From Burkholderia sp. SRS-46 (GTDB lineage Bacteria > Pseudomonadota > Gammaproteobacteria > Burkholderiales > Burkholderiaceae): a DNA stretch of 64,000 nucleotides. This document shows, piece after piece, positions 726-35,825 of the stretch. Below the pieces are notes generated by a model, which ran no database searches, had not been told where the DNA came from, and worked only from the letters and a program-made list of their open reading frames with translations. Within the stretch, counting starts at the first letter, position 1. Each line of letters begins with the position of its first letter. The DNA lies in contig NZ_PTXL01000011.1 in assembly GCF_004343775.1 (NCBI RefSeq), forward strand, positions 186,001 to 250,000, written 5' to 3'. Made by a program: the position numbers and the translations under genes.

Positions 726-1319
726 TCACCGGAACCCGGAGCGCTGCTGCCCCGGCAGGTATCCGCCGAACCCGGACAGGCTCGGCGCGCTGGCCGCCGT
801 GGCGGGCGCGGCCGGCGCCACCTCGTCGGCCAGCGTGGCCAGCCCCGGCGCGAGGAAAAGAAACTTCCACTTCCTGTAGGTCTCCGCGCCCTCGAAATCC
901 GCGTATAGCCGCGGAAAGCCCGCACGCTTGACGGTGGCCTGGTCGACGCTGCTGTAGACGCCGTAGAAGCGATCGGCTCGCCACAGGAACATCCAGTCGG
1001 TGCGTCCGGTCAGCGGATCCGGATACGCGCGCCGCAGATGATGCAGCGGCGTCGGGAAGCGGGTGTCGTCCACCAGTTCGTCGACGCTTTCCGGATACAC
1101 GCGAGCCAGGCGGTAGTAATGCACGATCGCCCTGCGGTACTGGTCGCCGGCGAACAGCAGCTGCTTCTCCTGCTCGCGGCGGCGTTGCAGCGCCCAGACA
1201 TCCAGCGCGCCCGCCAGGGCGATCGACATCAGCATCAGCGCGATCAGCAGCGCCAGCAGCACCAGCCCGCGCTCGCGCGCGGCACGCGGGCGGCACCCGG
1301 CCCGGCCCGCCGTGCTCAT
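726..1319 (-). CDS. Minor pseudopilin, GspK/GspJ-like, last gene of the atypical T2SS operon
   Basis: A 197-residue protein. After a short basic leader (RAARERG) there is one hydrophobic segment (GLVLLALLIALMLMSIALAG), as in type IV prepilin-like proteins, but the usual Glu at +5 is missing, a feature typical of the tip pseudopilin GspK. The segment is followed by a basic stretch (LQRRREQEKQLL) and a globular domain with a YPESVDELVDD motif shared with pseudopilins. The ATG overlaps the stop of the upstream pseudopilin gene by 4 bases (ATGA), so translation is coupled. The C-terminus is Ala/Pro/Ser rich. The role would be in the tip or shaft of a periplasmic pseudopilus. The exact class (J or K) is not certain. 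Confidence 0.75.
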   Translation of the reverse strand: MSTAGRAGCRPRAARERGLVLLALLIALMLMSIALAGALDVWALQRRREQEKQLLFAGDQYRRAIVHYYRLARVYPESVDELVDDTRFPTPLHHLRRAYPDPLTGRTDWMFLWRADRFYGVYSSVDQATVKRAGFPRLYADFEGAETYRKWKFLFLAPGLATLADEVAPAAPATAASAPSLSGFGGYLPGQQRSGFR

Positions 1320-1705
1320 CGCGCCGCTCCGGCCGCGTGCGGCGGCTCGCCCTGCGCGCTGCTCGCGGGCGCCACGTCGTAGACACCCGGCTTGGTCTCG
1401 TCCGGCGACGCGATCGCCGCCCATTTGTCGTCGCCGTTCACGGGATCGATCGGGACCACGCGCAGGTAATGCTTCTCGACCAGTTCGCCGAGCGTCTCGG
1501 GATACTGGCCGTTGTCGCCGAAGTACTGGTCGATCGCGTTGCGCATCACCGCGATGTTCTGCTGCCGGACCTGCTCCTTCCCGCGTTCGATGCTGTGCAG
1601 GTAGCGCGGCACCGCCAGCGTCAGAAGCAAGCCGATGATGGCCATCACGACCACGATTTCGATCAGCGTGAAGCCGCGCGGTTTGCGCGTGCGAGCGGGT
1701 TTCAT
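1316..1705 (-). CDS. Pseudopilin (GspG/H-like) of the atypical T2SS
   Basis: A 129-residue protein with a canonical class III signal: basic leader KPARTRKPRG, cleavage before FTLIEIVVVMAIIGLLLTLAVP, and Glu at +5. The globular part has the GspG-like pattern MRNAIDQYFGDNGQYPETLGELVEKHYLR..PIDP. It lacks the Ca-site-containing C-terminal loop seen in the first-gene pseudopilin of this operon and ends in an Ala/Gly/Pro tail. It is 9 bases downstream of another pseudopilin gene and overlaps the next by 4 bases. It should be processed by a prepilin peptidase encoded elsewhere, because none is seen in this window. Confidence 0.85.
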   Translation of the reverse strand: MKPARTRKPRGFTLIEIVVVMAIIGLLLTLAVPRYLHSIERGKEQVRQQNIAVMRNAIDQYFGDNGQYPETLGELVEKHYLRVVPIDPVNGDDKWAAIASPDETKPGVYDVAPASSAQGEPPHAAGAAR

Positions 1706-1714
1706 GATCTGCCA

Positions 1715-2257: not shown

Positions 2258-2260
2258 GGT

Positions 2261-4585
2261 TCAGTTCCCGTTCTGGATCGGGTGCAGCGGGTTTTCGTTC
2301 GGGATGTCGCCCGCCGGCATCTGCAGCGTCGGTGGCGGCGGCGCGGCAGCAGCCGGGGCCGGGGCGGGTGCCGCGGGTGCGGCCACCGGCGTCACGCTCG
2401 CGCCCGGGGCCGGTTGCGCTTCGTTGCCCGCCGCTTCGGTCGCCTGCGGCGCGCCGCCTGCCGGCGCGGCCGCGCCCTCGGCAGGCGCCGTGCCCTTCGC
2501 GGGCGGCGTTGCCGTTGCCGGCGCGGGCAGCGCGGGCTGCGCTCGCGAGAATCGCCCGCCGTACGGTTCCGGCGGCGGCGTCGTGCGCGGCGCGGCCGGC
2601 ATCTGCCCGAACGCACCACTCTCCGGCGACGGCTGCGCGCGGGTCGCCGCCGCGCCCAATGCCGAAGCCGCACTGGCGCCCGACGTGCCGCCGCCGACGC
2701 TGCCGGCCACCGGCCGCGTCTTGGGCCTCGCGCTCGCGGCCGGCGCGGCGGGCGTCTCCGAGGTCAGCGCCACGGGATCGAGCCGCAGTTCGTCGGCGTG
2801 CACGTTGACGTCGGTGCCCGACCACACTTCCTGCGTGTCCGCGTCCGCCGCGACCTGCGGCCGCACGATGTGCGGCGTGATCTGCAGCACGATCTCGGTC
2901 TTCTTGTGATCGCCCTCATGATCCGAGAACAGGCGGCCGAGCAGCGGCAACTGGCCGAGACCCGGCACCTTGTTCGCGTTGCGGCGGTCCTCGTCCGAGA
3001 TCAGCCCGCCCATGATCTGGGTTTCGCCGTCCCGCAGGCGCAGGCTCGTCGACGCGCTGCGCGTGCCGATCTGGTAAGCGAGCGAGCTCAGCCCTTGCGA
3101 GTTGCCGCTCTGGATCGTATTGGTGATGTTGCTGACCTCGAGATTCAGCTTGATGCCGACGTCGCCGTCGCGATAGACCTGCGGCTCCACTTCGAGCTTG
3201 ATGCCGACATCGAGGTACTGGATCATCTGCGTGAACGACGGGCCGCTCGTGCTCGGCGTGCTCGAGCTCGAAATCACCGGCACCTTGTCGCCGATCATGA
3301 TGCGCGCCTTCTCCTTGTTGCGCGTGCGGATGCGCGGGCTCGCGAGCAGGTTCGCATCGGTGTCCGTGAGCTTGAAGTCCGCGGTGGCGGACAGGCCGCT
3401 GACGTTCAGCGCATTGACCGGCAGATGGTGCAGCGCGCCCCAGGTATTCACCGTGCTCGGCGTCGACACCGTAAACGAGTTGGGCCAGTTGATGCCGAGC
3501 TGCGACATCCGCTCGTGCGACACTTCCAGCACCTCGACTTCGAGCATCACCTCCGGCTCCGGCAAATCCTGCGCGGCAATCATCTCGTCGGCGACCTTGA
3601 TCATGTCCGGCGTGCCGCGAATCGTCACGGTGTTCGCGCGCTCGTCGATCACGACTTCCTTCACTTTCAGCAGATTCTTCAGCAGCGACTGGATCTGCTT
3701 CGCGTCGACGTTCGACAACTGGAACGTGCGCACCTTCAGCTCCTGGTATTCGAGCTGCTTCGCCGGCGTCGCCGGATAGATGAACAGCGTGTTCGCGTTC
3801 ATCTGCTTCTTGTCGAGCTGGTTCTGCAGCAGGATCATGTCGACCGTATCCTGCAGCGACGCGTTCTGCACGAAGATCGTCGTCTTCAGGTCGGCCCGCA
3901 CGTCGCGGTCGAAGATCACGTTGAGCCCGGACGTGCGCGACAGTGCCTCGAATACCATCCGCACGTTCGCGTCGCGAAACTGCAGCGACACCGGCGTGCG
4001 CATGATCGACGAAGCGGCGAGCTTGTCGTCGCGTTCCGCGTGCTGCTGCCGGCGCTTTTCGTCGAGTTCCCTCTGCATCCGCAACGCCATCGCATTGGAC
4101 GGATCCTCGGCCAGCACGCGATGCACGCGCTCGGCCGCCTGCGCGTACGAGCCGCGCTTCATCATCCGATCGGCCTCCTGCAGGATCGCCAGATGCTTGC
4201 GGTCCTGCTCGATCATCGTGCCGAGCTTGCGGGCGCGCTCGCTGGCCGGATCGAGCTCGGTCGCCATGTAGACGGAGCGGGCCGCGGCATCGAACTGGTT
4301 CTCCTGGCGCAGCCGGTCGGCGTTGTCGAGGAGCGCGTTGATTTCGGTGTCGCGGTCGTGCATCGCATCGATCTTCACCTGCGCGTTGGTCGGATCGTCC
4401 TGGAGGTTGGGCACGTGTGCGCAGCCGCCGCATGCGAGCACCGCCACGGCGATCGCCAGCGCGCGCTTCGTCGCGATCCGGCCCGCCGGCGCGCACCGGG
4501 AATCGAACGGGGGGCCGGGCGCACGGCGTGTCGATGGGCCGCTGTTCCCGTCGCGGCGAGCACCCCGGGTATGTGAGGTTTTCAT
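2261..4585 (-). CDS. gspD: Secretin (GspD/PilQ-like) with N-terminal TPR region and Ala/Pro-rich tail
   Basis: A 774-residue outer-membrane channel subunit. In order: an unusually long basic N-terminus (about 40 residues), a hydrophobic signal (ALAIAVAVLACGGC) that may be a lipobox, helical TPR-like repeats (about 60-170), a short STN/secretin-N type domain (SLQFRDANVRMVFEALSRTS; QNTVDM-like), a second N domain (RTFQLSNVDAKQIQSLLKNL; ANTVTIRGTPDMI), and the secretin core ending VPGLGQLPLLGRLFS and EIVLQITPHIVRP. Residues from about 600 to 774 are a low-complexity Ala/Pro tail that the family does not need. The ATG follows the previous stop directly (TAGATG) behind a strong GGGGAGG site. The TPR-plus-secretin layout is closer to MSHA/Tfp-like systems than to classical GspD. 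Confidence 0.9.
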   Translation of the reverse strand: MKTSHTRGARRDGNSGPSTRRAPGPPFDSRCAPAGRIATKRALAIAVAVLACGGCAHVPNLQDDPTNAQVKIDAMHDRDTEINALLDNADRLRQENQFDAAARSVYMATELDPASERARKLGTMIEQDRKHLAILQEADRMMKRGSYAQAAERVHRVLAEDPSNAMALRMQRELDEKRRQQHAERDDKLAASSIMRTPVSLQFRDANVRMVFEALSRTSGLNVIFDRDVRADLKTTIFVQNASLQDTVDMILLQNQLDKKQMNANTLFIYPATPAKQLEYQELKVRTFQLSNVDAKQIQSLLKNLLKVKEVVIDERANTVTIRGTPDMIKVADEMIAAQDLPEPEVMLEVEVLEVSHERMSQLGINWPNSFTVSTPSTVNTWGALHHLPVNALNVSGLSATADFKLTDTDANLLASPRIRTRNKEKARIMIGDKVPVISSSSTPSTSGPSFTQMIQYLDVGIKLEVEPQVYRDGDVGIKLNLEVSNITNTIQSGNSQGLSSLAYQIGTRSASTSLRLRDGETQIMGGLISDEDRRNANKVPGLGQLPLLGRLFSDHEGDHKKTEIVLQITPHIVRPQVAADADTQEVWSGTDVNVHADELRLDPVALTSETPAAPAASARPKTRPVAGSVGGGTSGASAASALGAAATRAQPSPESGAFGQMPAAPRTTPPPEPYGGRFSRAQPALPAPATATPPAKGTAPAEGAAAPAGGAPQATEAAGNEAQPAPGASVTPVAAPAAPAPAPAAAAPPPPTLQMPAGDIPNENPLHPIQNGN

Positions 4586-5215
4586 CTACTTTTCCTCCCC
4601 TGGAATGGACACCACCTGCATCTGGTTCAGCGGCAGATAGGTGAGCACCACGTTCGACGCCGACACGGAGTCGATACGATACTGGCCATCGATCACATCG
4701 CCGGGCGACACGATCAGCAACTGATCTCCGTTGCTGAGAAACACCCGCGGCTTGTCCGCCTTCGCATCCAGTTCGCCGACGTAGGTGAACGGCACCGGAG
4801 GCGCCGTCGGCGGCGCCGCGCGCGCGGCGGGCAGCGGCGGCACGTCGACGGGCGGCGGCGGCAGCCATGACGACGCAGTGAACGGATCGTTCGCCGATTC
4901 GATGGACACCGGCGCGCGCAGCGCCGCGAGCTTCTCCCGTGGCGTCGCCGCGGGCGCATGCGGGTCGACCGGTGCGCCTGGCGCAGCGGCGGCCAGCGCC
5001 GCGGACGCCGCTTGCGCGCTCGCGCGCGACGGCGGCGCGCGATGCCCGCCGGCCGGCTGCACCGCCAAGCCGTCGCGATGCAGGCGATCGAACGCCGCGT
5101 GCGGCGCCGGCGACGCCGCGACCAGCATCCGGTACCCGATGCCGCCGACGACGATGCAGCACAACGCCAGCGCGATGCGCGCGACGGCGGCGGGTTTCAC
5201 GACGAGCGGCTTCAT
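4586..5215 (-). CDS. PilP/GspC-like inner-membrane protein
   Basis: A 209-residue protein: a single N-terminal membrane segment (about 10-30, VARIALALCCIVVGGIGYRML), a long Ala/Pro-rich linker, then a small beta domain (PPVPFTYVGELDAKADKPRVFLSNGD..IVSPGDVIDGQYRIDSVS) of the GspC homology-region/PilP type that contacts the secretin N domains. The FTYVGEL..PRVFL pattern is common in proteins encoded directly before secretin genes in pilMNOP-type clusters. It overlaps the upstream PilO-like gene by 4 bases (ATGA) and abuts the secretin gene. Confidence 0.75.
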   Translation of the reverse strand: MKPLVVKPAAVARIALALCCIVVGGIGYRMLVAASPAPHAAFDRLHRDGLAVQPAGGHRAPPSRASAQAASAALAAAAPGAPVDPHAPAATPREKLAALRAPVSIESANDPFTASSWLPPPPVDVPPLPAARAAPPTAPPVPFTYVGELDAKADKPRVFLSNGDQLLIVSPGDVIDGQYRIDSVSASNVVLTYLPLNQMQVVSIPGEEK

Positions 5216-5778
5216 GGCTGCGCGCTCCGGTAAATGAGCTCGAAACGCACGCGCGCGTCGAGCACGTTGCCGTTCACGGCGGGGCGCTCGACGTGGATTT
5301 CCTGCAGCGCCGCATTCGGCACGTTGTTGAGCACCCGCGCGAGGAACTGGCGAATCGCGCCGTACTGATCCTTGACCGGGAGCAGCACCTGATAGCGCGC
5401 GAAATGCGCGCCCGAATCGGTCGTCACCTGATATTCGGCGGCGCCAAGCGTCAGATGGCTGTCGCGCGCCTGCGCGAAGATCGACGCGATGTCGTCCGCG
5501 CTCTGCGAAAAGCGCGGGAACAGGTCAGGCAAGGCGTCGAACGCGACCGCATCCGCCGCCACGTTGCGCTCGGCCGCCGGACGATGGCTGCGCGCCGCCC
5601 GCGCGAGCCCGGCCGGATCCCGCATCGCGCGCGTGTCGGCTTCCACGTTCGAGACGACCGCGTACACGAGCGCCGCCGCGCCGAGCGCCAGCACGCCGAC
5701 GAGCCCCGGCAAACCGAACGCGCGCTGCAGTTCGTAACGCAGCGTGAGCAGCGCGTCGCGCAACCGGGCCGCCTTCAT
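5212..5778 (-). CDS. PilO/GspM-like inner-membrane protein
   Basis: A 188-residue bitopic protein: a short cytoplasmic N-terminus, one membrane helix (about 22-44, AFGLPGLVGVLALGAAALVYAVV), a periplasmic coiled region and a ferredoxin-like domain (LGAAEYQVTTDSGAHFARYQVLLPVKDQYGAIRQFLARVLNNVPNAAL is the PilO-like core, followed by a final strand DARVRFELIY). The start chosen at 5778 gives a 4-base overlap with the stop of the PilN-like gene, as expected for this set. In PilM-N-O-P platforms PilO pairs with PilN. Sequence identity to any single family is probably low, and the call rests on order, topology and fold pattern. Confidence 0.72.
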   Translation of the reverse strand: MKAARLRDALLTLRYELQRAFGLPGLVGVLALGAAALVYAVVSNVEADTRAMRDPAGLARAARSHRPAAERNVAADAVAFDALPDLFPRFSQSADDIASIFAQARDSHLTLGAAEYQVTTDSGAHFARYQVLLPVKDQYGAIRQFLARVLNNVPNAALQEIHVERPAVNGNVLDARVRFELIYRSAQP

Positions 5779-6305
5779 GATTTCCTCCACACGGCCGTGA
5801 TCTGGAATCGCACCGGCTTGCCCGGCACGTTGTTCTCGATCACGTGATCGTTGAGCACCGCTTCGCGCAGCAGCACGCTCGCCTGCAGATACTTCAGGTA
5901 GACGACCATCGCATCGAGGTTCTTCGCCTCGGCGGTGATGCGGATCTGGCCCTGCGCCGGATTCTGGTCGATGCCGATCAGCGCGACGTCGTGGTCCGGA
6001 TAGTCCTCGACGATCGAAAAGAGGTCCTGCCACGGCACCGTCAGTTCGCGCAGGACCGCCTGGCCCTGCTTCTCCGCCAGCTTCGCGGCCGGCGTCGGCG
6101 GCGGCTTCGGTACGTGCCGCTGCGCGAGCGTCCGATGCCGGACCGCCTCCACCTCCGACTGTGCGCGATCGTTTTCCGCGTACGCACGCCACAACCGCGC
6201 GCCGCACGCGACCAGCAGCACCACGGCGATGGCCAGCAGGATCATGCCGCTCGTCGCGGTGCGCACGCGACGCCGGACGAAATCGATATCGACGAGCGGG
6301 ATCAT
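5775..6305 (-). CDS. PilN/GspL-C-like inner-membrane protein
   Basis: A 176-residue protein beginning MIPLVDIDFVRRRVRT, the kind of short cytoplasmic motif by which PilN binds PilM, followed by one membrane helix (about 19-40), a helical stalk and a ferredoxin-like domain (ALIGIDQNPAQGQIRITAEAKNLDAMVVYLKYLQ). The start overlaps the upstream stop (TAATG), so a much longer in-frame reading upstream can be discarded. With the flanking genes it forms the PilM-N-O-P-like platform that replaces GspL and GspM in this secretion system. Confidence 0.72.
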   Translation of the reverse strand: MIPLVDIDFVRRRVRTATSGMILLAIAVVLLVACGARLWRAYAENDRAQSEVEAVRHRTLAQRHVPKPPPTPAAKLAEKQGQAVLRELTVPWQDLFSIVEDYPDHDVALIGIDQNPAQGQIRITAEAKNLDAMVVYLKYLQASVLLREAVLNDHVIENNVPGKPVRFQITAVWRKS

Positions 6306-7183
6306 TACGCCACCTCCATCAGCCGGCGCGCGAGCGACCCGTCGAGGGCCGGCTGCGGCGGGCGAATCGCGGCCGCGAAATGCGCGGCGAACGGCGCGGG
6401 GTCCAGGTCGATGCCGCACAGGTAGATCCGGCAGTCCTCGCGCTTCAGGCCCGCTCGCGTCGCCGAGCGTTCGAACAGCTGCCCGGCGAGTTCGGCGAGC
6501 CGCGCCGCGTCGTCCGCATCGCCCGGAAACAGACGCTGCGCGTCGTAGGCGGCCCAGCCGCCGCGTTCGATCATGACCGCCTGCATCAGCTCGCCGGCGA
6601 CGAACAGCAGCAGCGCATCGCCTTCGCAATGCGCCGCGATGCGGTTGAGCATTTGCGGAAGACACGCGCGCAGGCTGCGGATGCGAATCGCGCTGGCGGT
6701 GCACGCTTCGTGCAGGCCGTCGTGCAGCGCGCGCGGCATCGCGCTCGCGAACAGCGCGCGGCCGCCATGCTGCACGCAGAAGCGCACGACCAGCGCCGCG
6801 CCGTCGATCCCGCAGGTGTCCGAGAAATGCGTGAGCGCGATCTCTTCGAGCTCGCGCTCGCGCAACGTGCGGAAGTCGCCGCGCAGGATCGCGTGGTTGC
6901 ACCAGAAATCGTCGAGCACGACGGATGCGCTACGGACCGACGGCGCCGCCGCGCCCTGCGGTGCCGCGCCGGGCGCAGCCATCGGCAGGGCGCCGAGCGC
7001 GGCGCGCAGCGCGTCGAGCACGCCCGGCTCGGTGCCGAACTGCGCGTCGGGAATCGCGACGGCGACCGGCTCGACGAGCGCCGGGCGCTTGCGCAGGTAC
7101 CACCGTGCGCGCGTGCGGGCGCCGACGACGACTTCACGGGCACCGACGCCGATCGCAACGGGACTATTCAACCATCGTGACAC
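6305..7183 (-). CDS. PilM/GspL-N-like cytoplasmic protein
   Basis: A 292-residue protein with no signal or membrane segment. It lies between the ATPase and the PilN-like gene, exactly where an actin-fold PilM would be, and the C-terminal half has the alternation expected for that fold (ALLLFVAGELMQAVMIERGGW; RIYLCGIDLD). Clear ATP-binding motifs of PilM are not visible, so it may be a diverged, non-nucleotide-binding version. It overlaps the gspE stop region by 20 bases. The assignment is by position and rough pattern, not by strong motifs. Confidence 0.55.
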   Translation of the reverse strand: MSRWLNSPVAIGVGAREVVVGARTRARWYLRKRPALVEPVAVAIPDAQFGTEPGVLDALRAALGALPMAAPGAAPQGAAAPSVRSASVVLDDFWCNHAILRGDFRTLRERELEEIALTHFSDTCGIDGAALVVRFCVQHGGRALFASAMPRALHDGLHEACTASAIRIRSLRACLPQMLNRIAAHCEGDALLLFVAGELMQAVMIERGGWAAYDAQRLFPGDADDAARLAELAGQLFERSATRAGLKREDCRIYLCGIDLDPAPFAAHFAAAIRPPQPALDGSLARRLMEVA

Positions 7184-8904: not shown

Positions 8905-10101
8905 CTACTGAATGCTCGACGCGATTTCGAAGATCGGCAGATACATCAGCACGACGATGCCGCCGATGACCACGCCGATCACGATCATCATCACGGGCTC
9001 GATCAGCCGCGAGATCAGGTCGATCGTGCGCGAGACCTGCGCTTCCTGGAACGCGGCGATCCGGTCGAGCACGCGGCCGAGGCCGCCGGTCTTCTCGGCC
9101 ACCGTCAGCAGCCGGTAGGCAATCGCATTGGCGAGGCCGGCCTGCTGGAACGCATCGGAGATCCGGGCGCCGTTGCGCACCTGCTGCAGCGCACCCGCGA
9201 GCGCGGCCTGGTCCGCGCCGCCGACCAGGCCGCGCGCGAGATCGAACGCGCGCACGGCGGGAATGCCGCCGTCCACCAGCATGGCCGTCGTGCGATAGAA
9301 CTGCGACTGGCGAAACACGCGGAAGTGCCGCCCGATGCCGGGCAGCGCCAGCAGGCGATCGGCCATCCAGATCCGCACCGCCGGCCGGCGCAACGCGATT
9401 GCCGTCGCCACGGCCAGCACCGCGAGGCCGATGCCCAGCTCGGGGCCGTGCGCGTGCACCATGCCGCCCCACGCCATCAGCAAGCGCGACATCAGCGGCA
9501 ATTCGCGTCCGCTATGTTCGAGGAGCGTCGCGAACCGGGGCACGACGAAGCCGAGCAGGAACAGCACGACGGCCGCGCCGACGAACAGCAGCACCGTCGG
9601 ATAGATCGCCGCCGACACCACGCGCGCGCGCAGCTCGTGGAGCGTCGCGCTGTTGCGCGAATAGCGCGTCAGGCTGCCGGCGAGCCCGCCGGTCTGCTCG
9701 CTCGCCTTCACGCACGCGACCAGCACCGGCGGGAAGACGTCGCTCGCGTGCTCGAGCGCCGCGGACAGCGACTGCCCCTCCTCCAGTTGCCGCAGCAGAT
9801 CGCGATACACCTGCGCGGTCGCCTCGCGCCGCTCGTTGCCGCCGAGCGTGCGCAGCGCGTCGACGACGCCGACGCCCGCATCGAGCAGCGCCGCGAGCTC
9901 GCGCGCGAACAGCTCGACGTTCAGGCGCTTGCCCGGCATCCCGAGCCGCTTCGCGCCGCGCCGCCGCGCGTCCGCGCTCACCGACGCGACGCGAAAGCCG
10001 CGCGAGCGCGCGAGCGCCGCCGCGCTCGCCGACGAATCACTGTCGAGGCGGAGCGTCTGGACCGAGCCGCTCGTATCGAAGACACGCAGCACGAACTTCA
10101 C
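8905..10101 (-). CDS. gspF: GspF/PilC-type inner-membrane platform protein
   Basis: A 398-residue polytopic protein with two GspF domains. The second part carries the typical membrane segments and PilC motifs (FRQSQFYRTTAMLVDGGIPAVRAF; AEKTGGLGRVLDRIA; LIEPVMMIVIGVVIGGIVVLMYLPIFE). The first half has the matching RELAALLDAGVGVVDALRTLGG and ASEQTGGLAGSLTRYS. I take a GTG start at 10101 because AAGGAG lies just upstream and the family starts with a short strand (MKFVLRVFD); the frame is open further upstream but that part shadows gspG. It follows gspG after about 57 bases. Confidence 0.93.
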   Translation of the reverse strand: MKFVLRVFDTSGSVQTLRLDSDSSASAAALARSRGFRVASVSADARRRGAKRLGMPGKRLNVELFARELAALLDAGVGVVDALRTLGGNERREATAQVYRDLLRQLEEGQSLSAALEHASDVFPPVLVACVKASEQTGGLAGSLTRYSRNSATLHELRARVVSAAIYPTVLLFVGAAVVLFLLGFVVPRFATLLEHSGRELPLMSRLLMAWGGMVHAHGPELGIGLAVLAVATAIALRRPAVRIWMADRLLALPGIGRHFRVFRQSQFYRTTAMLVDGGIPAVRAFDLARGLVGGADQAALAGALQQVRNGARISDAFQQAGLANAIAYRLLTVAEKTGGLGRVLDRIAAFQEAQVSRTIDLISRLIEPVMMIVIGVVIGGIVVLMYLPIFEIASSIQ

Positions 10102-11456: not shown

Positions 11457-11546
11457 TTTCGTCGCTCCTTGCCGGACGCGTTGCGCCTGCGTCGCGCCCG
11501 GTCCTTCCGGCGGCCGGCGCGAGCCCGCCATGCGCGGGCACAGGCC

Positions 11547-27400: not shown

Positions 27401-30400
27401 CGTAGCAGAACTGGCTGTAGGCCGGGTTGAACAGCGGATCGCGGATCGTCTGGCCCGGATGCGCCGGGTCGGGCATGTCCGGATCGTTCATGCAGGCGAC
27501 CATCATCGTCGGCGCGTAGCCGGTCGGATTCGGCGGGTTGACCTGCCACGTCGAATAGTTCAGCCCGTTGAAGATGCCCCACGAATCCGAATACGTGCGC
27601 GCGATCTCATTTCCGGCGAAGTCCTTCATCGAGATCGGCACGTTCGGCACCGCGAACTTCTCGCCGAACTGCGGCGAGTACGGATCGAACTCGGACGAGA
27701 AATCGTCGAGCATGAAGCCGGTGTAGTGCGCGGCGACATGCGTCGAGCTGAACAGCCAGAACTTCGCGAGCGCCGACATCTCGTTCGTGAGCGTGACCTC
27801 CTTGCGGTCGCACAGGTGCCGCGAGGCGCCCGCGAACGGCGCGACCTCCTTCGAGCCCGGGAACAGGCTGATGTAGTCGGGCACGACACGCAGCGCGCCG
27901 ACGCACGGCCAGAACGTCTCGACACTGCCCGTGTCGCCTTCGTGCCGCGGCGTCGAGCCGAGGTCCGTCGTCGGGTTCTGCGCACTGTTCCGGTTGAAGG
28001 TCGAATTCATCGCCGCCTGGTCGGGCAGGATGAAGATATTGCCGAGGCCGCCGAACTGTTGCGTCACCGGCGCGATGTAGTTGTCGCCGATCAGGATGTT
28101 CTTGTCCTCCTCCTTCACGAGCTCGTAGCCCGGCGGCACCACCACTTCGACGACGTATTTCCCGGCCGGCAGCATCTGCGTGCCGTCGCCCGACGGATTC
28201 GGTGCGCAGATCGTGCAATTCGTGGCCGTCGGCAGGCCCGTCGACGGGTTGCGCGCCGTCACGCTCGGGAACTGGTACATCCCGTCGTAGGGCGCCGGCT
28301 GCACCTGGTTGAACGCGTGCATGCCGTCATAGCACTTGAACTGCGAATTCGCAGGCAGCGCGCGATGCGTCGGGTCGAGCCACTGCGGGCTGTTCTTCAA
28401 CGTATAGAAGAACGGGTCGCTCGTCTCCTGCCCCGGGCAGTTCATGTTCGGAATGCCGTCGGAGCGGAAGCCCTGCGCCCAGTCGTCCCAGCTGCTCGTC
28501 TTCGTCGTATCGACGAGCACGAGCGTCGTCGTGCCGTCCGCGGCCGTGCCCTCCTGGTACAGGTTGACCGTCACGTTCGGGATGTTCGGCGTCCAGCTCG
28601 TGTGAATGAGCAGCGCGGGATCGTCGAACGGCCGCGTCGACGCGTAGATCACCTCGCCCTTGATGCCGCCGTTCTCGGTCGGGAGGTATGGCTTCTTGCC
28701 GAACTCGATGAACGAATTCTGACCCGAGAAGCCCTGCCAGCCTTCGGTCGTCACCCATGGCGGATCGATCCGCGCGGTCGACGGGTTCGTGCCGGACTGG
28801 TCGGCGCAGTCCGCATCGTTGCAATACCTGGCGCCCGGCACGCGCAGGTTCGCCGGCAGATGCGCGGTCGACGATTCGATCGTGTTGGCGAAGTTCGCCG
28901 CGATGTTCGAGCTGCCTCCGCCGGTCGTGCCGTCGACCGGGCCGCCCGCGTCATAGACCACGTGCACGCCCGTCTGCTTGTAGCGCGTCGTGTCGGCTTC
29001 GACCACATACCAGTTGAACAGCGGGAACACTTCGTTGAACCCGGCGAAGCCGTTCAGGTCCGTGTTGTTGAAATTCGAATAGCTGCCGTCACGGAAGCGG
29101 ATGTTGGTCGGCACGAGCGTGAGCCCCGGCTCGCTGCCCTGCGAGACGCCGTCGCCGTTCTGGTCGAAGAAGGTCCGCGTGTACAGGTTCGTATGCCACT
29201 GCAACACGGGAATGTCGCCGAGGTTCTTCGACTGTCCGCCCTTCAACTGCGTCGCCGTCGCCAGTCCGTCGACGATCTGGTCGTTCCATTGGTCGAAGAC
29301 CGTGATGCGGAACGTGCCGTCGGGCAGGCCGCTGACCGTGAACGTGCCGTCGGCATTGCACTTGGTAAAGGCGATGTCCTCCCCGTCGGTGTCGCCGACG
29401 CTCACGTAGCACTGCGTGAAGCCCAGCGAGTCGCGCGAGCCCGAGCTGTACAGGTTCTCGTTCGGCGGGCGGCTGTAGTGCAGGTTCGTGATCCGGCCGG
29501 AGACCGAGTTGTTGCACGTCGCGCCGGCGCACACCACCGGCAGCCGGGCGTTGATGATCTTCGGGTTCGCGAAGCCGATCGACACGTGGAAGCCCGCGGG
29601 CCCGAACTCCTGGAAGTACGACGGACCGCCGACCTTGATGAACGCGTCATGGCCCTTCTGTCCGTCCAGCGTGTTGGTCTGCAGCCATTCCTCGCCACGG
29701 CCGATCCGGTCGGCGCCCGGCGTCGCGACGACGCCATAGCGGCCCGGCATCAGGTTCGCGATGACCGCCTGGCCGACGAGGGGCGACGGCGTCTTGCCGT
29801 CGGACTCGTATTTCGGGCAGGTCGGGATCATGCCGACGAGACCGTCGGTTGTCGTCGAAATCGGGCACGCGCTCAGGCCCGTCGCAGGATCGATCGTGCC
29901 CTGCAGCGAGTTCGACAGCGGCATGTTGAACATGTCGTAGGTCATCTGCCCGGTGGCGTCGCCGGTGCCGCCGGCGTCGTCGAACAGCTTGATCTCGAAC
30001 CCGCCGAGACCCGGCTCATGTGCGGTGCCGAAGCTGTCGCTGCCGCCGGTCACGTCCACTTCCCCGTTGACGGGCGCATCGTCCTCGAACACGAATATCG
30101 AGATCTTCGCGGTCTGCAACGGCGTCTCCTGCAACAGCACGTTGACGCGCTTCTGTGCCGGTGCGATCGGCGCGCCGCCCATCGTGTGGCCGCAGGCGCC
30201 CTTGCCCGGCAGGAAATCCGCCCCGCCGGGACCCGACGGGCAATCTTTCGAGATGTCGAACTGCCGTTTCGGTCCGGTGGGGTTGTTCGGGTCGACGGGC
30301 TGCGGGGCGCCGGCGCCGTTCGAGAAGCTGTTGCCCGCGTCGCCCGGCAGGATCGAGATGTAATAGTGCTTGGTCGGATCGAGCGACACCTGGCTCGGGT

Positions 30401-32621
30401 CGACCGGCACCTGCTGCGCTGCATTCGTGCGGCACGTGCCGTCGCCGATGTCGCATACCGTGGGCACGTGCGTGTTGGTTGCGGGATCGAACACCGTCTG
30501 CCCCGACTCGCACGCCACCGTGCCGACGCAACCCGCTGCGACCACCGGCATATAGCTCGAATGGAAGCTCGTGCCGAGACTCGGCACCGGCAGCGGCGGA
30601 CAGTTCGCCGGGCGCGGCGTCGTGTTCACCTGGCAGGCCGGGTCGATCTGGAACGTGCGGTCTTCCTCGATGATCCACCGATAGTCGGTGAGCTGCACGG
30701 GCGTCATGCCCGGCGCCGTGCTCGGCGCGTCCAGCACCTTCACCGCAAGTCCGCTGCCGCCATTGAACGTGACGGTCACGGTCGCGGGTGCGCTCGCGGT
30801 CTTCTGCGAATTGACCGCCGTGTACTTGAAGGTCACGCCTGCGGTCGCGCTGCCGACAGGCGGCACGCTCGGCGCCACGACGAACGAACCGTCCGCGTTC
30901 AGCGTGACGGTGCCGCCGCTGACACTGCTCGGCACCACTGCCGCGGCGAGCGGCAAACCGCCGGGGTCCGTGTCGTTGCCGAGCACACCCGGTGCGCCGA
31001 TTTGCAGCCGCGACGCGACGTTGCTCGTGTAGCTGTCGTTGTGGGCGACCGGCGGACCGGACAGGCAGCCGGCGGCTTGCGTGCAGGCGGCCAGCGTCAC
31101 CGTCGTGGTAATCGACGGATTGCCGTTCGCCTGATACACGAAGCTGTCCGACGTCGTGCCGGTATTGGGCACGTAGCTGAAGGTGCCATCCTGGTTCAGC
31201 GTCACCGTGCCGTTTGCCGGCTTGGTCACGAGCTGCACGCCATAGACGCCGACGTCATTGGCGATCACCCCTTTCGCCGGGTCCGCCACGGTCAGCGTGT
31301 TGCCCGCCACGAGGAAGTACTTGTCGGGATTGGCGACGACATTCTGGCCGCCACCGCCCGCCGACGGAAGCACGCCGTTATTGACGCGGAGATACGCCTG
31401 CATGCCGCCGTCGCGCTGGTTGTTGGTGGACAGGCTCAATTGCCGGTCGAACACCGGCAGCGCGGCCGCGTTCTGACCCGGTGCGTTCATCAGCACGTCG
31501 TAGGTCTTGCCCGCCGCCAGGAACACGGTGGACTGCACGCGCGGGTTGCCGGGCAGCGGATTGCCGTCCTCCGCGACGAGCGTGAACCCGGAAACCGCGG
31601 AACTGCCGGTTTGCGCACCGACCACCGACGGCACGTGCATCCGCAGGCCCGCGTTCACGAAGCGCAGGAGCACCTTGCCGGTCGACGCCGGAGCACTCGC
31701 CGGGAACGACGACCGGTTCGGATTCGTGCGATCGAACGCGACGCCGTTGATCAGGTAGTAACGCGGATCGAAGTTCACCGCCGGCGGGTAGCAGGTGCCG
31801 AACGAAGTGGAATGCGAGTCCCCGCAACCGCCTGAAAGACCCGACCAGACCTTGCTTTCGCTGAAGCCGGGCGTCGCCACGGCCGCAGCGACCGCGGCGT
31901 TCTGCACCGGATCGATTTCGCTCAGCACGAGGGGGATGTCGGCATCGTAGCCGACGCCCGGATAGGCAATCGCTTGCGACGTCGCGGAGGCCGGCGGGGT
32001 CCGCACCACGAGTACGCCATAGAGGCCCATCGGCGCCTGGATCGATGGATGGGAGCCCGATTCGATCAGATAGGTGCCGGGCCGCAGGTTGTTCCATAGC
32101 AGCGTCGTTGTCGCACCGTGAGCCACCTCGGTCGAGAACGACTGGACCCGGGGCCCTTGCGCGGGCGGCGTGAACGTCGCGCCGCTGCCGGTTCCGGCGA
32201 TCGGCCAGGTCGTCGAGGTCTGCGTCGGATGCACCGGGCTGGGGGTCGACGTCGCCGTCTTGCCGAGACCGCCGCCCAGCTGGCCGACGATCACGAGCGA
32301 GGTCGGCACGGAGGCCGGCAGACTGTTTGTGAGGTTGATCCTCAGCGACGCGCCGGACGGCACGGTGATCACCACCGGCGACCAGTTCAACCCGGCGCCA
32401 GGATTGGCCGCCGCGCAGGTGGCCGGCGCCACGGCGGCCGCCGAGCACGTGTAGCCCCACATCGGCACGACCTGGCCGTCGGGCATCATGGCTGTCGTGG
32501 CCTTCGCCGTCAGGTTCACGGTCTGGGCGAGCGATGCTTCACTCGCCGCCAGAAGAATGGACGCGGCGAAGCCCGCCTTGACCAGGTGGAGTAACGTCGC
32601 CTTGAACTGGATGAGTCTCAT
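24489..32621 (-). CDS. Giant secreted protein: degenerate cupredoxins, Ig-like, SdrD-B-like and beta-helix domains
   Basis: A 2710-residue protein with a signal peptide (cleavage near SLAQT). In order: two or three cupredoxin-like domains (about 35-420) that resemble the multicopper oxidase genes next door but lack the His pairs (SLVIVGQLGG in place of H-x-H; GTYLIESGSHPSIQAPMGLYGVLVV); two cadherin/Big-like repeats (about 440-625; KGVIANDVGVYG, PGVLGNDTDPGG); Cna-B/SdrD-B-like segments (about 840-1500) with a Ca-loop-like DQNGDGVSQGSE near 1150; an IPT-like domain near 1850; and a right-handed beta-helix (about 1930-2670) starting AIQTAIDKATPGDLIIVGPGNY. It has no repeats-in-toxin or sortase signal, so T2SS export fits. 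Confidence 0.88.
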   Translation of the reverse strand: MRLIQFKATLLHLVKAGFAASILLAASEASLAQTVNLTAKATTAMMPDGQVVPMWGYTCSAAAVAPATCAAANPGAGLNWSPVVITVPSGASLRINLTNSLPASVPTSLVIVGQLGGGLGKTATSTPSPVHPTQTSTTWPIAGTGSGATFTPPAQGPRVQSFSTEVAHGATTTLLWNNLRPGTYLIESGSHPSIQAPMGLYGVLVVRTPPASATSQAIAYPGVGYDADIPLVLSEIDPVQNAAVAAAVATPGFSESKVWSGLSGGCGDSHSTSFGTCYPPAVNFDPRYYLINGVAFDRTNPNRSSFPASAPASTGKVLLRFVNAGLRMHVPSVVGAQTGSSAVSGFTLVAEDGNPLPGNPRVQSTVFLAAGKTYDVLMNAPGQNAAALPVFDRQLSLSTNNQRDGGMQAYLRVNNGVLPSAGGGGQNVVANPDKYFLVAGNTLTVADPAKGVIANDVGVYGVQLVTKPANGTVTLNQDGTFSYVPNTGTTSDSFVYQANGNPSITTTVTLAACTQAAGCLSGPPVAHNDSYTSNVASRLQIGAPGVLGNDTDPGGLPLAAAVVPSSVSGGTVTLNADGSFVVAPSVPPVGSATAGVTFKYTAVNSQKTASAPATVTVTFNGGSGLAVKVLDAPSTAPGMTPVQLTDYRWIIEEDRTFQIDPACQVNTTPRPANCPPLPVPSLGTSFHSSYMPVVAAGCVGTVACESGQTVFDPATNTHVPTVCDIGDGTCRTNAAQQVPVDPSQVSLDPTKHYYISILPGDAGNSFSNGAGAPQPVDPNNPTGPKRQFDISKDCPSGPGGADFLPGKGACGHTMGGAPIAPAQKRVNVLLQETPLQTAKISIFVFEDDAPVNGEVDVTGGSDSFGTAHEPGLGGFEIKLFDDAGGTGDATGQMTYDMFNMPLSNSLQGTIDPATGLSACPISTTTDGLVGMIPTCPKYESDGKTPSPLVGQAVIANLMPGRYGVVATPGADRIGRGEEWLQTNTLDGQKGHDAFIKVGGPSYFQEFGPAGFHVSIGFANPKIINARLPVVCAGATCNNSVSGRITNLHYSRPPNENLYSSGSRDSLGFTQCYVSVGDTDGEDIAFTKCNADGTFTVSGLPDGTFRITVFDQWNDQIVDGLATATQLKGGQSKNLGDIPVLQWHTNLYTRTFFDQNGDGVSQGSEPGLTLVPTNIRFRDGSYSNFNNTDLNGFAGFNEVFPLFNWYVVEADTTRYKQTGVHVVYDAGGPVDGTTGGGSSNIAANFANTIESSTAHLPANLRVPGARYCNDADCADQSGTNPSTARIDPPWVTTEGWQGFSGQNSFIEFGKKPYLPTENGGIKGEVIYASTRPFDDPALLIHTSWTPNIPNVTVNLYQEGTAADGTTTLVLVDTTKTSSWDDWAQGFRSDGIPNMNCPGQETSDPFFYTLKNSPQWLDPTHRALPANSQFKCYDGMHAFNQVQPAPYDGMYQFPSVTARNPSTGLPTATNCTICAPNPSGDGTQMLPAGKYVVEVVVPPGYELVKEEDKNILIGDNYIAPVTQQFGGLGNIFILPDQAAMNSTFNRNSAQNPTTDLGSTPRHEGDTGSVETFWPCVGALRVVPDYISLFPGSKEVAPFAGASRHLCDRKEVTLTNEMSALAKFWLFSSTHVAAHYTGFMLDDFSSEFDPYSPQFGEKFAVPNVPISMKDFAGNEIARTYSDSWGIFNGLNYSTWQVNPPNPTGYAPTMMVACMNDPDMPDPAHPGQTIRDPLFNPAYSQFCYEIPFMPGQTQYMDTPVVPVQAFASGYNPPDCAYPDGTPAIASVTGDASGGGAGPWVSAVGHQLTIKALGDQVVPNHAYDGPGATTAPFNQKFVKRHYGFGAAQGKVTIGGNVASVQSWTDTEIHVVVTPLATPPTAPTCTVQQRGVSTPTSCGELVVTTASGKRTIDTVTVTVGGKAPTYVNGENATNNAIQTAIDKATPGDLIIVGPGNYNEMVVMWKPVRLQGVGAPSVVINANTHPSGKIDAWRREVDCLFGVAMNGAMISASNPFDPSGTYTCPTAMQRKVDPIPFEPTVGWDANLNGNLGEMLLEPTLMGAYEGAGITVLAKGVKDVLVGGVPQPDPNCTANGICVPLTGPTTLQPNPPDCANNPSNFLCNPSRIDGITVTNSSQGGGGIFLHGWNHLMEVSNNRVFSNAGTLSGGISVGQVEVPDGTIAADGFTELPFGFNQRVNVHHNSVTSNASYGDEINSSTPSSAGGVVFCTGADNYHFNYNWVCGNMSSGDGGGVAHFGFSYAGDISHNWVLFNQSNNPTLPTYGGGIIAQGVPPDGTFCENTTVDTDCAPQLSDGIGPRLVIDGNLIMGNTAESGKGGGLRLQQVNGTDVQRSPNTAANWYTVRVINNIVANNVAGWGGGGVSLQDAVAVSFVNNTVMSNDATASAGVLFNTDAAAQANVGPPNCTTVGAQTTCNPITTSTYQPAGLETARHTANFVAAFTAAGVACPAGQPNCTTFSNPVLTNNVFWQNRTFFITVAGSTNPAVMQNTVALNPTLNQAGHPTGYCDPNAVYWDIGAYGDTGPGNHQSGLTLHPQYSILTDAGDYPSANNSGANPSVVSQYCNGARVPPEGGGNGFAVPPGISDTVLPNPLFSLLPSAVPDEGNQWINMTYGPLSLFNMSISSGSAGYGVLLGNYSLRSTSPAINTGTQAGAPDHDFFGTTRPQQGKYDVGAVEFLPSGVVGGLPIDPLGLGALLSQP

Positions 32622-32638
32622 TGCGGTTCTCCCCGCCT

Positions 32639-34246
32639 CTAGTTGCCTTCGTTGATAACGAAGACTTGTGGATCAACAAGCATCATCATCATCATTCCGC
32701 CCGGGAAGATGTTGTTCGTGGTGATCTCGCGTTCATTGTGCGAATGCCACATGAATGCAAAGCCCGCTTCGCTTCCCGGAGGGTTCGCGATCGTGCCGCT
32801 CGGCGGCGTCGTGCCCGTCGGCGAGGTCGCGCGAATCGTCGCGTCCGGTCCGAGATAGGGACTGCCGCCATACCACGCCCCGTTCGTCAGGATGTGCGAG
32901 TCGGGCAGCGTGACCGGTCCGCCGCTGCCGACGTTCCCGAACGGATGCGCTTCGAGCGCCTTGTTGTGGTCCGCGCACCATTCGTAGTAGTTCGGCGCCG
33001 TCGGGTCTGCCGTGTAGTAGCCGTTCGCATCGGGAATGCACACGCTGCCGTCGCCCGCCTTGTGCCCGTAAACGTCCCAGTTCAGGCCCTTGCCGGTCCA
33101 GTAGAAGATGCCGTCCATGGTTTCGCCCGGCGTCGTGGTCGTGGTGAACAGCAGCGGACCCGCGACTTTGGTCGCGTCCGACTTGGCAAGAAGCAGGTTC
33201 CCGTCGCGCGCTAGCACGCGGACGTGATTGCCGTGTTCGTGGAATGGATGCTGCCAGCGGCCCGTGCCGATGATCCGCAACAGCACCAGTTCGCCGGGGT
33301 GCATGTGCGGATTGCCGTTGTAGGGCTGATGCGGATACTGGAACGAATAGTTCGGGTCCATGTCGTCCGGCATCGAGCGGCCGTTGATCATGAAGTAAGC
33401 CGGGTGATAGGGCTCGGTCGCGACGGTCATGCAGCCCGTCGGCAGCGTGCACGTCTTCGCGGCCTCCTGCTCGGCCTGCGTATGGATGCGTGGATCCATT
33501 TCGGAGAACTGAAACAGGTACTCCCGGTCGTAGCACGCCGAGCCGTGGTTGTACGCCGCCGCCGCATTGCGGTAGTCCGGCTGGCCGTCGGGCAGCGTCG
33601 CTGCGACCGTGCGGCACCCCTGCGGCACGGCAAGCACGCCGGGCGCCGACGTCGGCAACACGATGATCGCGCCGTAGAGGCCCATTTCGATCTGCAGGTC
33701 GCCCCGCGTGCCGCTGTAGTACGTGTGCGTGCCGGGCGTCGCCGCGACGAAGCTATAGGTGACCGTGTTGCCGTGAGCCGCTTCGCGCGTGAGCAGCCCA
33801 GGCACGCCGGTAAGCGAGGCCGGACACGTGCCGTCCGGGTTGAGCACCGCCGCGCACACCTGGAATCCCTGAAAGAGGATCGACGTGTTGCCCGCGGCCG
33901 CAGGCAGGTTGTTCGTGAGCGTCACGGTGATCACGTCGCCCTGCTTGACGATCAGCGTCGGCCCGGGAATCTGCATGCTCGGACAGGTCGCGCCAGTGAT
34001 TCCGGCAGGCGAGAATCCCGCCGGCGCCGTGCGGCAGCCATAGCCCCATGAATAGACGCTCGTGCCGTCCGGCTGGCTGATGCGACTCGCCTCCGCGCTC
34101 AGCTCGAAGTGCGTACCGGTGATGCCCGGCGCCGCCGCCTGCACCGGCAGGCAAAGCAACGCGGCAAGCGTCGCCACGACAAGCCGCGCAAGGCGTCCAG
34201 CGCCCCTGCGCGTTGCAGTCCAGGTGTGATGAGTGAATTGACCCAC
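32639..34246 (-). CDS. Multicopper oxidase subunit with trinuclear motifs 3 and 4 but no type 1 Cys
   Basis: A 535-residue exported cupredoxin protein (signal cleavage near VQAAA). The first cupredoxin domain has lost its copper His (ILFQGF for HxHG; GTHTYYSGTRGDLQIEMGL for the second pair). The later part has HPFHEHGNH (H333, H336, H338, H341), the classic C-terminal motif, and MWHSHNERE (H501, H503) where a normal enzyme has HCHxxxH; the Cys that binds type 1 copper is Ser502. A Met run follows (M518-522). Alone it could not form a complete enzyme. It ends 17 bases before the giant gene and starts 10 bases after the partner oxidase gene. Confidence 0.88.
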   Translation of the reverse strand: MGQFTHHTWTATRRGAGRLARLVVATLAALLCLPVQAAAPGITGTHFELSAEASRISQPDGTSVYSWGYGCRTAPAGFSPAGITGATCPSMQIPGPTLIVKQGDVITVTLTNNLPAAAGNTSILFQGFQVCAAVLNPDGTCPASLTGVPGLLTREAAHGNTVTYSFVAATPGTHTYYSGTRGDLQIEMGLYGAIIVLPTSAPGVLAVPQGCRTVAATLPDGQPDYRNAAAAYNHGSACYDREYLFQFSEMDPRIHTQAEQEAAKTCTLPTGCMTVATEPYHPAYFMINGRSMPDDMDPNYSFQYPHQPYNGNPHMHPGELVLLRIIGTGRWQHPFHEHGNHVRVLARDGNLLLAKSDATKVAGPLLFTTTTTPGETMDGIFYWTGKGLNWDVYGHKAGDGSVCIPDANGYYTADPTAPNYYEWCADHNKALEAHPFGNVGSGGPVTLPDSHILTNGAWYGGSPYLGPDATIRATSPTGTTPPSGTIANPPGSEAGFAFMWHSHNEREITTNNIFPGGMMMMMLVDPQVFVINEGN

Positions 34247-34256
34247 GATATTTCTC

Positions 34257-35825
34257 CTAGATGCAAGACTTCGTGGCCGGGTTCAATGCGCCAGGGCAGA
34301 TGCGGACTTCCGTCATCAAGCCCCCGAAGTTCTCGGCGTCGTTCGACAGGTGATCGAGATTCGGCGTGTACAGGTAAAAGACCGAACCCGGCGCGTACTT
34401 CGTCGTGTCGCTCGCATCGAGAATCACGTCAATGGATTCGCCGCCGCCGAGCGTGATCGAGTTCGCGTAGTAGGTCATGTCATTGCCGGCCATATCGCGC
34501 AGCAATCGGGCGTTGATGCCGATCACGTGCATCGGGACGCCGAGCGACGCGAGCGTCTGGAATTCGGTGACGTCGAGATCGGAAATCCTGAGCAGCGCCC
34601 TGCCGCCGGCCGGAATATTGATGATGGTCGGCAGCGGCTGGGAAAAATGCGGTGTGCCGTCGGCCACCGGGGTCTGCATCGCGCCGCCGGTCACGGTGTC
34701 CGGATAGCTGCGCCCGTTCAGCATGAAGTACTTGTCCTTCATGTCGGTGAACGGTTCCGGATTGAACGTCATCCCGACGAAATGGAAGTTCGGATCGAAG
34801 CCGTGTATCTGCACCGGATACTCGACGTCGTACGCCGTCGAACCGTCGCCGTCGTTGTATGCGTACAGCGTCGGCTTGCCGCTCTTGTCGTTGAGATGCA
34901 GCAGGCCGTTCGAGGGCGGCAGCGGCGTCGAGCACAGAATGTCGTTGCCGCACCGGGTGCGCAGATCACCTTGCTGTTGCACCAGCGCGTTGTACAGCGA
35001 CTTGCCCGCAGGCACCCGGTTTTGGCGCGGCCGCACGAAGATCTGGCCGACCATGCCCATCTGCAGGTGCTCGGGCGGCGTGATGTGGCAGTGCCAGAAG
35101 TAGGTGCCGGCATCGGGTGCGAGATAGTAGTAGGTAAAGCTGCCGCCGATGTTGATCGCCACCGACGCATCCGGCACGCCGTCATAGAACGACGACGCGT
35201 TCGGATAGCCGTGGAAGTGCACCGTATGCTGCTCGAACAGGTCGGGGCGCATGATCATGCCGACATTGGTGAGCGTGAGGAAGAACTCGTCGTCCTCGTC
35301 GATCGCCATCTCGGGCGCCGGCATGTTGCCGTTCATCACGCCGATATCCATGATCGGACGCGGATCCACGTGGCCGGTCAACTGTCCTGGCGGCGAGGAT
35401 TCCGGATCGGGCACGAGGCCGACCGCACCGTTGTAGGTCGCATCCGTTCTCGGATCGCCGACCGTGTTGAACACTGCCGCGAACTCGGTACCCGCGAGAC
35501 CCGCCTGGATGTCGGCAATGCCGGACAACGGACCGAAGGAAAACAGATAGGTCTGCGTACCGTCGGCCATCGTCGCATAACCATCGCCGCCCGAGATCTG
35601 CTGGCACTTGATCGCACCGTTGACCTTGCCGGTCGACGTGGAGTTCTGTCCGGTGAAGGACGGCCCGGTGTAGGCAGGTTCCGGCGCACCAGGCGCCAGC
35701 GCGGTCGGGTGCGCCGGCGTGGTGAACGGGCACTGGACACGGAACGATTGCGCGAACGACGGAACGGCGGACAGCAGGAGCAACAGTGCCGCCACACTGC
35801 TGCAATACGTGCGGGTGCTGAACAT
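34257..35825 (-). CDS. Multicopper oxidase subunit with trinuclear motifs 1 and 2 and a type 1 copper site
   Basis: A 522-residue exported cupredoxin protein, first gene of the operon, starting behind GGAGGT at 35825. The first half holds VHFHGY (H203, H205) and YFWHCHITPPEHLQMGM (H245, C246, H247, H253, Met256/258), that is one pair of trinuclear ligands plus a complete type 1 blue-copper site. The second half (QIHGFDPNFHFVGM; MHVIGINARLL) has no second set of His pairs. The missing C-terminal motifs are present in the protein encoded next (32639-34246), so the two are complementary. The region before motif 1 (30-190) is unusually long. Confidence 0.9.
   Translation of the reverse strand: MFSTRTYCSSVAALLLLLSAVPSFAQSFRVQCPFTTPAHPTALAPGAPEPAYTGPSFTGQNSTSTGKVNGAIKCQQISGGDGYATMADGTQTYLFSFGPLSGIADIQAGLAGTEFAAVFNTVGDPRTDATYNGAVGLVPDPESSPPGQLTGHVDPRPIMDIGVMNGNMPAPEMAIDEDDEFFLTLTNVGMIMRPDLFEQHTVHFHGYPNASSFYDGVPDASVAINIGGSFTYYYLAPDAGTYFWHCHITPPEHLQMGMVGQIFVRPRQNRVPAGKSLYNALVQQQGDLRTRCGNDILCSTPLPPSNGLLHLNDKSGKPTLYAYNDGDGSTAYDVEYPVQIHGFDPNFHFVGMTFNPEPFTDMKDKYFMLNGRSYPDTVTGGAMQTPVADGTPHFSQPLPTIINIPAGGRALLRISDLDVTEFQTLASLGVPMHVIGINARLLRDMAGNDMTYYANSITLGGGESIDVILDASDTTKYAPGSVFYLYTPNLDHLSNDAENFGGLMTEVRICPGALNPATKSCI

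Follow-up and report, generated by a model that had tools for sequence, protein, structure and literature searches.

A Burkholderia gene block with a putative split multicopper oxidase and a linked type II secretion system

Described systems nearest to the block

A copper-protein cluster, Slit_1812-1818, has been described in Sideroxydans lithotrophicus ES-1, where three tandem multicopper oxidase (MCO) genes stand with mofC-like and copper-chaperone genes and few clues to function are given (PMC5566968). The proteins of this cluster are predicted to be extracellular. Their levels in late magnetite cultures exceeded those in Fe(II)-citrate cultures, and clusters of a similar kind are noted for Paraburkholderia, Ralstonia, Anaeromyxobacter and Steroidobacteraceae (PMC12016527; statements taken from this and the other articles refer to the portions of text available). 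The present analysis concerns a gene block at positions 726-35825 of a 64,000-nucleotide stretch of DNA from Burkholderia sp. SRS-46 (the window, positions 186001-250000 on its contig, genome 8.59 Mb). The block carries a trio of copper-protein genes (MCO1, MCO2 and a giant secreted protein) together with a type II secretion system (T2SS). On the evidence of gene order and of Gallionella/Sideroxydans-type relatives, the core of the block matches the ES-1 cluster; one MCO2 relative (L013) shares about 70-72% identity with proteins that carry the names Gallionella sp. and Sideroxydans sp. metagenome-assembled genome (MAG). With a probability of roughly 55%, the block is judged to encode a hetero-oligomeric multicopper oxidase that is exported and mounted on an adhesin scaffold.

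The block shares with the ES-1 cluster the three tandem cupredoxin/MCO genes, of which the largest lacks MCO motifs and has adhesin- and polysaccharide-lyase-like domains, as well as SCO1/SenC, a MofC-like cytochrome and small proteins (PMC12016527, PMC5566968). The SCO1/SenC and MofC-like genes were found in the window (g13 and g21) and in the proteobacterial regions read. Unlike the ES-1 cluster as described, the block has a linked T2SS, a CcsB/c4/Cyc2-like cassette and a division of the copper ligands, none of which is mentioned in the available text of PMC12016527. A first-pass annotation of this DNA had known of no such unit in this group of bacteria, a statement overtaken by the similar copper-protein clusters reported in Paraburkholderia and Ralstonia (PMC12016527). 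New in comparison with the published clusters are the T2SS linkage in several rearranged orders and the complementary ligand split, within a literature check that was limited and partly unspecific. The block is not described in the accessible portions of PMC11708043, PMC10654088 and PMC13386937, and titles and abstract starts of the listed papers on MCO, secretion and cytochromes of C. metallidurans held no description of the cluster. The search for a published split or heteromeric MCO was unspecific and returned unrelated papers only, and the absence of such a report is not established.

The block also resembles OmpB and the atypical T2SS of Geobacter sulfurreducens in having an extracellular copper protein, an atypical T2SS, and a MofC-like cytochrome and SCO gene such as lie near ompB, although OmpB itself is one large polypeptide (PMC5566968). 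The earlier view of one functional neighbourhood of atypical T2SS and secreted copper proteins is supported, SCO and a MofC-like fusion being present as at ompB (PMC5566968). By fold, the copper proteins of the block stand with the type-C two-domain MCOs (Nitrosomonas europaea 3g5w, metagenomic laccase 2zwn) and copper nitrite reductases, whose two-domain cupredoxin fold they share. In type-C MCOs one polypeptide gives both halves of the copper site, whereas in the block the halves lie on two gene products. The Nitrosomonas blue copper oxidase is a homotrimer whose trinuclear cluster lies at the boundary of adjacent subunits, where domain 1 of one chain faces domain 2 of its neighbour. Ceruloplasmin and six-domain MCOs such as MnxG are fused pseudo-trimers of two-domain units that keep a single trinuclear cluster, while the two-domain units of the block are three separate proteins. 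The atypical T2SS of Geobacter sulfurreducens was reportedly treated by Mehta et al. in 2006.

Division of the copper ligands in the trio

Gene calling was self-trained and families were assigned by Pfam and NCBIfam scans, with coordinates given as window positions. Transcription of the block is mostly on the minus strand, MCO1 lying at the 35825 end and the pseudopilin-like genes at the 726 end. The trio and the small gene behind it are the following.

34257-35825, minus: MCO1, with the type 1 (T1) copper site and the first half of the trinuclear ligands
32639-34246, minus: MCO2, GTG start at 34246 with AGGAG before it (residue numbers counted from 34177)
24489-32621, minus: giant secreted protein, 2710 amino acids (Pfam; hhalign with MCO2)
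23971-24477, minus: small secreted protein (g24); start shifted upstream to 24477, giving a signal-like N-terminus

The copper ligands were counted with each locus entered once. MCO1, MCO2 and the N-terminal part of the giant protein are paralogues, each with two cupredoxin domains, and their losses of ligands complement one another. In 81/81 loci MCO1 has the T1 site together with one half of the trinuclear ligands (HSH in 0/81), and MCO2 carries the other trinuclear half with Ser replacing the T1 Cys in 85/85 (HCH in 0/85). The giant N-terminus has neither ligand half, HxH occurring in 3 of the 74 loci counted. Ordinary MCOs of the same order showed both halves in 23/23, and the set of a single-chain MCO, T1 plus both trinuclear halves in one chain, was found in neither MCO1 nor MCO2. 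Set against type-C MCOs, the copper motifs of MCO1 match domain 1 and those of MCO2 domain 2. Residues 1-430 of the giant protein aligned with MCO2 by hhalign at a probability of 99.8; cadherin/Big_9, SdrD_B-like and beta-helix-like stretches follow the MCO-like part (Pfam), and the search of the whole giant protein against the PDB was unproductive. The candidate of two complete multicopper oxidases was rejected, the full ligand set being present in neither protein, and the earlier label of two multicopper oxidases probably misjudges what kind of protein these are, each holding one complementary half of the copper ligands.

Searching 84,980 species genomes with MCO2 gave 164 confirmed relatives, and 80 of these were kept. 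In all 80 kept loci MCO1 is the gene immediately upstream of MCO2, and in 79 the gene immediately downstream is the giant one, the exception (L075) ending at a contig edge; this adjacency of the trio is more than chance. The small gene g24 comes immediately after the giant gene in many loci. The hosts are Paraburkholderia, Burkholderia, Collimonas, Cupriavidus, Trinickia, Pandoraea, and acidobacterial and other MAGs; the nearest named MCO2 relatives among the kept matches, at 95% identity, are from Burkholderia territorii LMG 28158 and Burkholderia sp. Nafp2/4-1b. Matches of E 1e-50 or better were present in 7/300 genomes of the order, the own genome counted. MCO2 was found in 16 of 65 genomes of the genus and its distribution is therefore patchy. 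Eight plasmid or chromid records carry MCO2 (Paraburkholderia 6, Cupriavidus 2, including C. metallidurans CH34).

Gene content, linkage, homology and ligand pattern were observed directly, and assembly, copper loading, export and substrate are deduced from them. The trio may have arisen from an ancestral homotrimer of two-domain oxidase subunits, similar in kind to the Nitrosomonas blue copper oxidase, in which case MCO1 would have retained the T1 site plus the ligand half of domain 1, MCO2 that of domain 2 only, and the giant subunit neither. As the ligand halves are complementary, the contact between MCO1 and MCO2 would be the only place at which one full site could form. The ring would be closed by the giant subunit, whose adhesin-like and beta-helix parts would fix the enzyme to a surface. 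The N-termini are Sec-type (by eye), which together with SCO and the T2SS suggests periplasmic copper loading followed by export; the loading would fall to SCO, perhaps with the help of the MofC-like fusion, and a dedicated T2SS would export the folded assembly afterwards. In its most specific form the proposal is tentative, at somewhat less than even odds: an obligate heterotrimer with its sole T1-trinuclear site across the MCO1-MCO2 interface and the giant adhesin as third subunit, the copper-loaded complex being exported by its own T2SS to solid or polymeric substrates. Such an enzyme would represent a new MCO architecture, a pseudo-trimer resembling ceruloplasmin but made up of separate chains.

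The two proteins could instead act separately with no common cluster: MCO1 would then carry electrons through its T1 blue copper, and MCO2 would bind copper or hold a single site. The T1 motif of MCO1 is complete, each protein is a complete two-domain fold by model comparison, and MCO2 has an additional conserved HxH (H291/H293, in 81/85), which the split site leaves unexplained. The retained ligands, however, are strictly conserved and sum to one ordinary MCO set, and the MCO1 and MCO2 genes are adjacent in every kept locus, so that separate action is considered unlikely.

Linkage with a type II secretion system

The genes of the secretion system and its candidate parts occupy the lower end of the block.

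726-1319, minus: small gene grouped as pseudopilin-like (g1), no family match at E<=0.001
1316-1705, minus: pseudopilin-like (g2), Pfam N_methyl motif
1715-2257, minus: pseudopilin-like (g3), Pfam N_methyl motif
2261-4585, minus: secretin, GspD-like with long N-terminal extension (Pfam Secretin 144 bits, Secretin_N, STN)
4586-5215, minus: assembly-platform candidate (g5), accompanies the T2SS in Burkholderiaceae relatives, as do g6 to g8
5212-5790, minus: assembly-platform candidate (g6)
5775-6305, minus: assembly-platform candidate (g7), weak Pfam matches (PilN E 0.0068, GspL_C E 0.064)
6305-7171, minus: assembly-platform candidate (g8)
7164-8885, minus: GspE/PilB-type ATPase (Pfam T2SSE 391 bits)
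8905-10101, minus: GspF (Pfam T2SSF)
10158-10631, minus: GspG major pseudopilin (Pfam T2SSG; NCBIfam GspG 178.5 bits, cut-off 88.9)

Homologues of GspD, GspE, GspF and GspG are present together by Pfam, and g1-g3 are kept together with the T2SS in relatives. The system is called atypical because GspG alone clears its curated NCBIfam cut-off, GspD, GspE and GspF falling under theirs. The secretin scored 182 bits with GspD and 167 with PilQ, and the ATPase 455 bits with GspE and 444 with PilB, all under the cut-offs. The search for GspC, GspL and GspM gave the weak PilN and GspL_C matches in g7 alone, under the curated Pfam cut-off, and the profiles of g6 and g8 against the PDB gave nothing convincing. 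ARAGORN reported a tRNA-Gly at 4986-5067 (minus) within the reading frame of g5, a match that is probably fortuitous. The genome holds 11 T2SSE-type ATPase matches in all, several of them outside the block, and the T2SS of the block is therefore an extra system.

The linkage was surveyed in 43 loci of 42 genomes (L042-L044 left out of 46). The best GspE lies on the MCO2 contig, 9 to 27 kb away, in 28 of the 43 loci, with the contig recognised as the same one by length. The T2SS is downstream of MCO2 on the same strand in the window and Paraburkholderia, directly upstream in Cupriavidus, Pandoraea, Trinickia symbiotica and two proteobacterial MAGs, and downstream on the opposite strand in L077 and L104. 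In L112, from the same genome as L084, it directly precedes another MCO1 copy on its contig. One gammaproteobacterial MAG contig seems to hold two oxidase clusters (L171, about 39.6 kb, and L112), one right behind the T2SS. The rough chance product for the proximity of GspE and MCO2 is ~1e-64, a figure whose true value is much larger owing to the kinship of the genomes, and the varying gene orders are the better argument for linkage.

The T2SS contig stops inside the CcsB gene of the cassette in 7/43 loci (L039, L040, L063, L086, L089, L093, L103), and in L103 the oxidase contig stops in CcsB as well. The window genome has a second CcsB (contig C3, 45446-46618) with a 93% identical protein, and an assembly break is therefore the likely cause of these contig ends. 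The candidate explanation of broken linkage in some Burkholderia and Paraburkholderia was rejected, as CcsB repeats have likely split the assemblies in these loci. In Collimonas (L056, L061, L070) the T2SS contig edge lies near GspG, and a same-contig T2SS was not seen for L069, L096, L109 and L116 (short contigs or GspE elsewhere) or for L084. C. metallidurans CH34, in which the T2SS adjoins the oxidase genes, holds within 41.6 kb a kinase, a regulator, the T2SS, MCO1, MCO2, the giant, the small protein, the LolA-like pair, the MofC-like fusion, SCO and the transglycosylase; g12 and g17-g20 were not found in that stretch.

Acidobacterial loci keep the trio and, to some extent, the genes of the small protein and of the LolA-like type (contig identity was checked for two genomes, L177 and L178). 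Several acidobacterial MAG trios (L071, L073, L079, L082, L099, L083, L113 and others) have an MCO2 of about 62-69% identity, and some acidobacterial genomes hold two trio loci. These findings suggest transfer between phyla with later duplication. Blocks lacking one half at random had been named beforehand as the sign that would speak against a single unit; the outcome is mixed, since acidobacterial trios without T2SS genes in the flanks seen do occur, but the pattern follows lineage and is not random.

Several results weigh against an exported hetero-oligomeric oxidase. Slit_1817 and Slit_1818 are described with canonical MCO motifs in the available part of PMC12016527, MCO2 has the additional HxH mentioned above, and the two monomer models are middling (mean predicted local distance difference test 71.4 and 68.6, with values <50 at several ligand loops). 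On the side of export, the same GspE type occurs in 109/300 genomes of the order (E<=1e-150), the acidobacterial trios lack T2SS genes in the flanks seen, and the described T2SS of ES-1, Slit_0489-0506, is far by locus number from Slit_1812-1818 (PMC3770913). The last three also favour the view that the T2SS is a general second exporter which stands near the oxidase genes by chance and does not carry them. Against that view, the linkage persists despite differing order and strand, all 7 order-sample genomes with a strong MCO2 match fall among the 109 with the GspE type, and in 5 of the 6 other than the window genome GspE and MCO2 lie on one contig, about 11 to 38 kb apart; a merely neighbouring exporter is thus held to be quite improbable. 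The GspE type commonly occurs without these oxidases and was rejected as a marker of the oxidase system. The T2SS type is not private to the oxidase system, though the copy in the block travels with it.

Haem cassette, substrate and significance

The remaining genes of the block are listed here.

10782-11531, minus: LuxR-type response regulator (Response_reg and GerE)
11547-12539, minus: SCO1/SenC copper-delivery protein (g13; Pfam SCO1-SenC 76 bits)
12909-14042, plus: PAS histidine kinase (PAS, HisKA_3, HATPase_c)
14057-14824, minus: second LuxR-type response regulator (domain scan)
15338-16030, plus: lytic transglycosylase (SLT domain)
16812-18047, minus: CcsB, optional cassette (NCBIfam CcsB 250 bits, cut-off 187.6)
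18119-18850, minus: two-haem c-type cytochrome, c4-like, optional cassette (Cytochrom_C; two CxxCH)
19007-20320, minus: Cyc2-like one-haem outer-membrane cytochrome candidate, optional cassette (g20; CxxCH at 24, no Pfam family)
20548-22233, minus: MofC-like fusion of cytochrome c and a periplasmic-binding-like part (g21; Cytochrom_C E 1.5e-4, one CxxCH)
22236-23072, minus: LolA-like paralogue (g22), conserved neighbour (LolA_like weak, E 0.0032)
23104-23802, minus: LolA-like paralogue (g23), conserved neighbour (LolA_like weak, E 2.2e-4)

The inventory of the first-pass annotation (T2SS, two-component genes, SCO, CcsB, cytochromes, giant and two MCO-family genes) was recovered throughout 726-35825 by gene calling with Pfam and NCBIfam, apart from the label of the c4-like cytochrome as a lipoprotein, for which a simple lipobox pattern gave no match. 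The CcsB, two-haem cytochrome and Cyc2-like genes are present in 6 and absent from 11 of 17 downstream regions (L119-L135) and form an optional cassette, possibly an electron-transfer add-on. The description of the locus as complete-looking stands for the named items and overstates the haem part, and the combination of both the Geobacter and the Mn(II)-oxidiser themes with a Cyc2-like cytochrome is true of this strain and not of the system. A Cyc2-like cytochrome as the core was rejected as a candidate, since g18-g20 are missing from those 11 regions and were not seen in the 41.6 kb of CH34. The g20 protein has the single N-terminal CxxCH of Cyc2; its 120 listed homologues are named cytochrome C or unnamed, and none carries a Cyc2 name. 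In g21 the cytochrome part is above the Pfam cut-off and the binding part is a weak ANF_receptor match (E 0.067). In the proteobacterial loci read, a MofC-like gene is a near neighbour of the oxidase genes; it was present at E<=1e-40 in 12/37 genomes searched, mostly proteobacterial.

Elsewhere in the window, a flavin monooxygenase, a short-chain dehydrogenase, a predicted metal-dependent hydrolase and an alpha/beta hydrolase stand in series at 54186-58530 as an ordinary-looking catabolic operon, and the start of a large NAD-glutamate dehydrogenase at 61320-63998 is truncated by the window end. Rfam gave 0 matches on the whole window.

The substrate is most likely Fe(II) or another extracellular reductant, by analogy with ES-1. 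The enzyme could also be a split oxidase acting on lignin phenols or other plant or humic compounds and not on metal, a possibility of appreciable though lesser weight: judged by their names, most hosts belong to genera typical of soil or plants, acidobacterial soil MAGs among them, and the cadherin-like and beta-helix-like stretches of the giant protein are as in surface or polysaccharide-binding proteins. The rise of the related ES-1 proteins in late magnetite over Fe(II)-citrate cultures (PMC12016527) speaks against an organic substrate and is the sole basis for proposing a metal. An oxidase for solid Fe(II) is accordingly put forward as the first choice by analogy, with phenolics as a live rival.

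A cluster that has so far amounted to three cupredoxins raised on magnetite gains an enzyme model, with a site common to two proteins, and a likely exporter. C. metallidurans CH34 is a well-studied genetic host in which the T2SS, the trio, the MofC-like fusion and SCO stand side by side, and the bacterial oxidation of solid iron or other extracellular matter by copper proteins becomes directly testable. If the split site is true, T2SS export of an assembled, metal-loaded hetero-oligomer would also be informative about the passage of folded complexes through the outer membrane.

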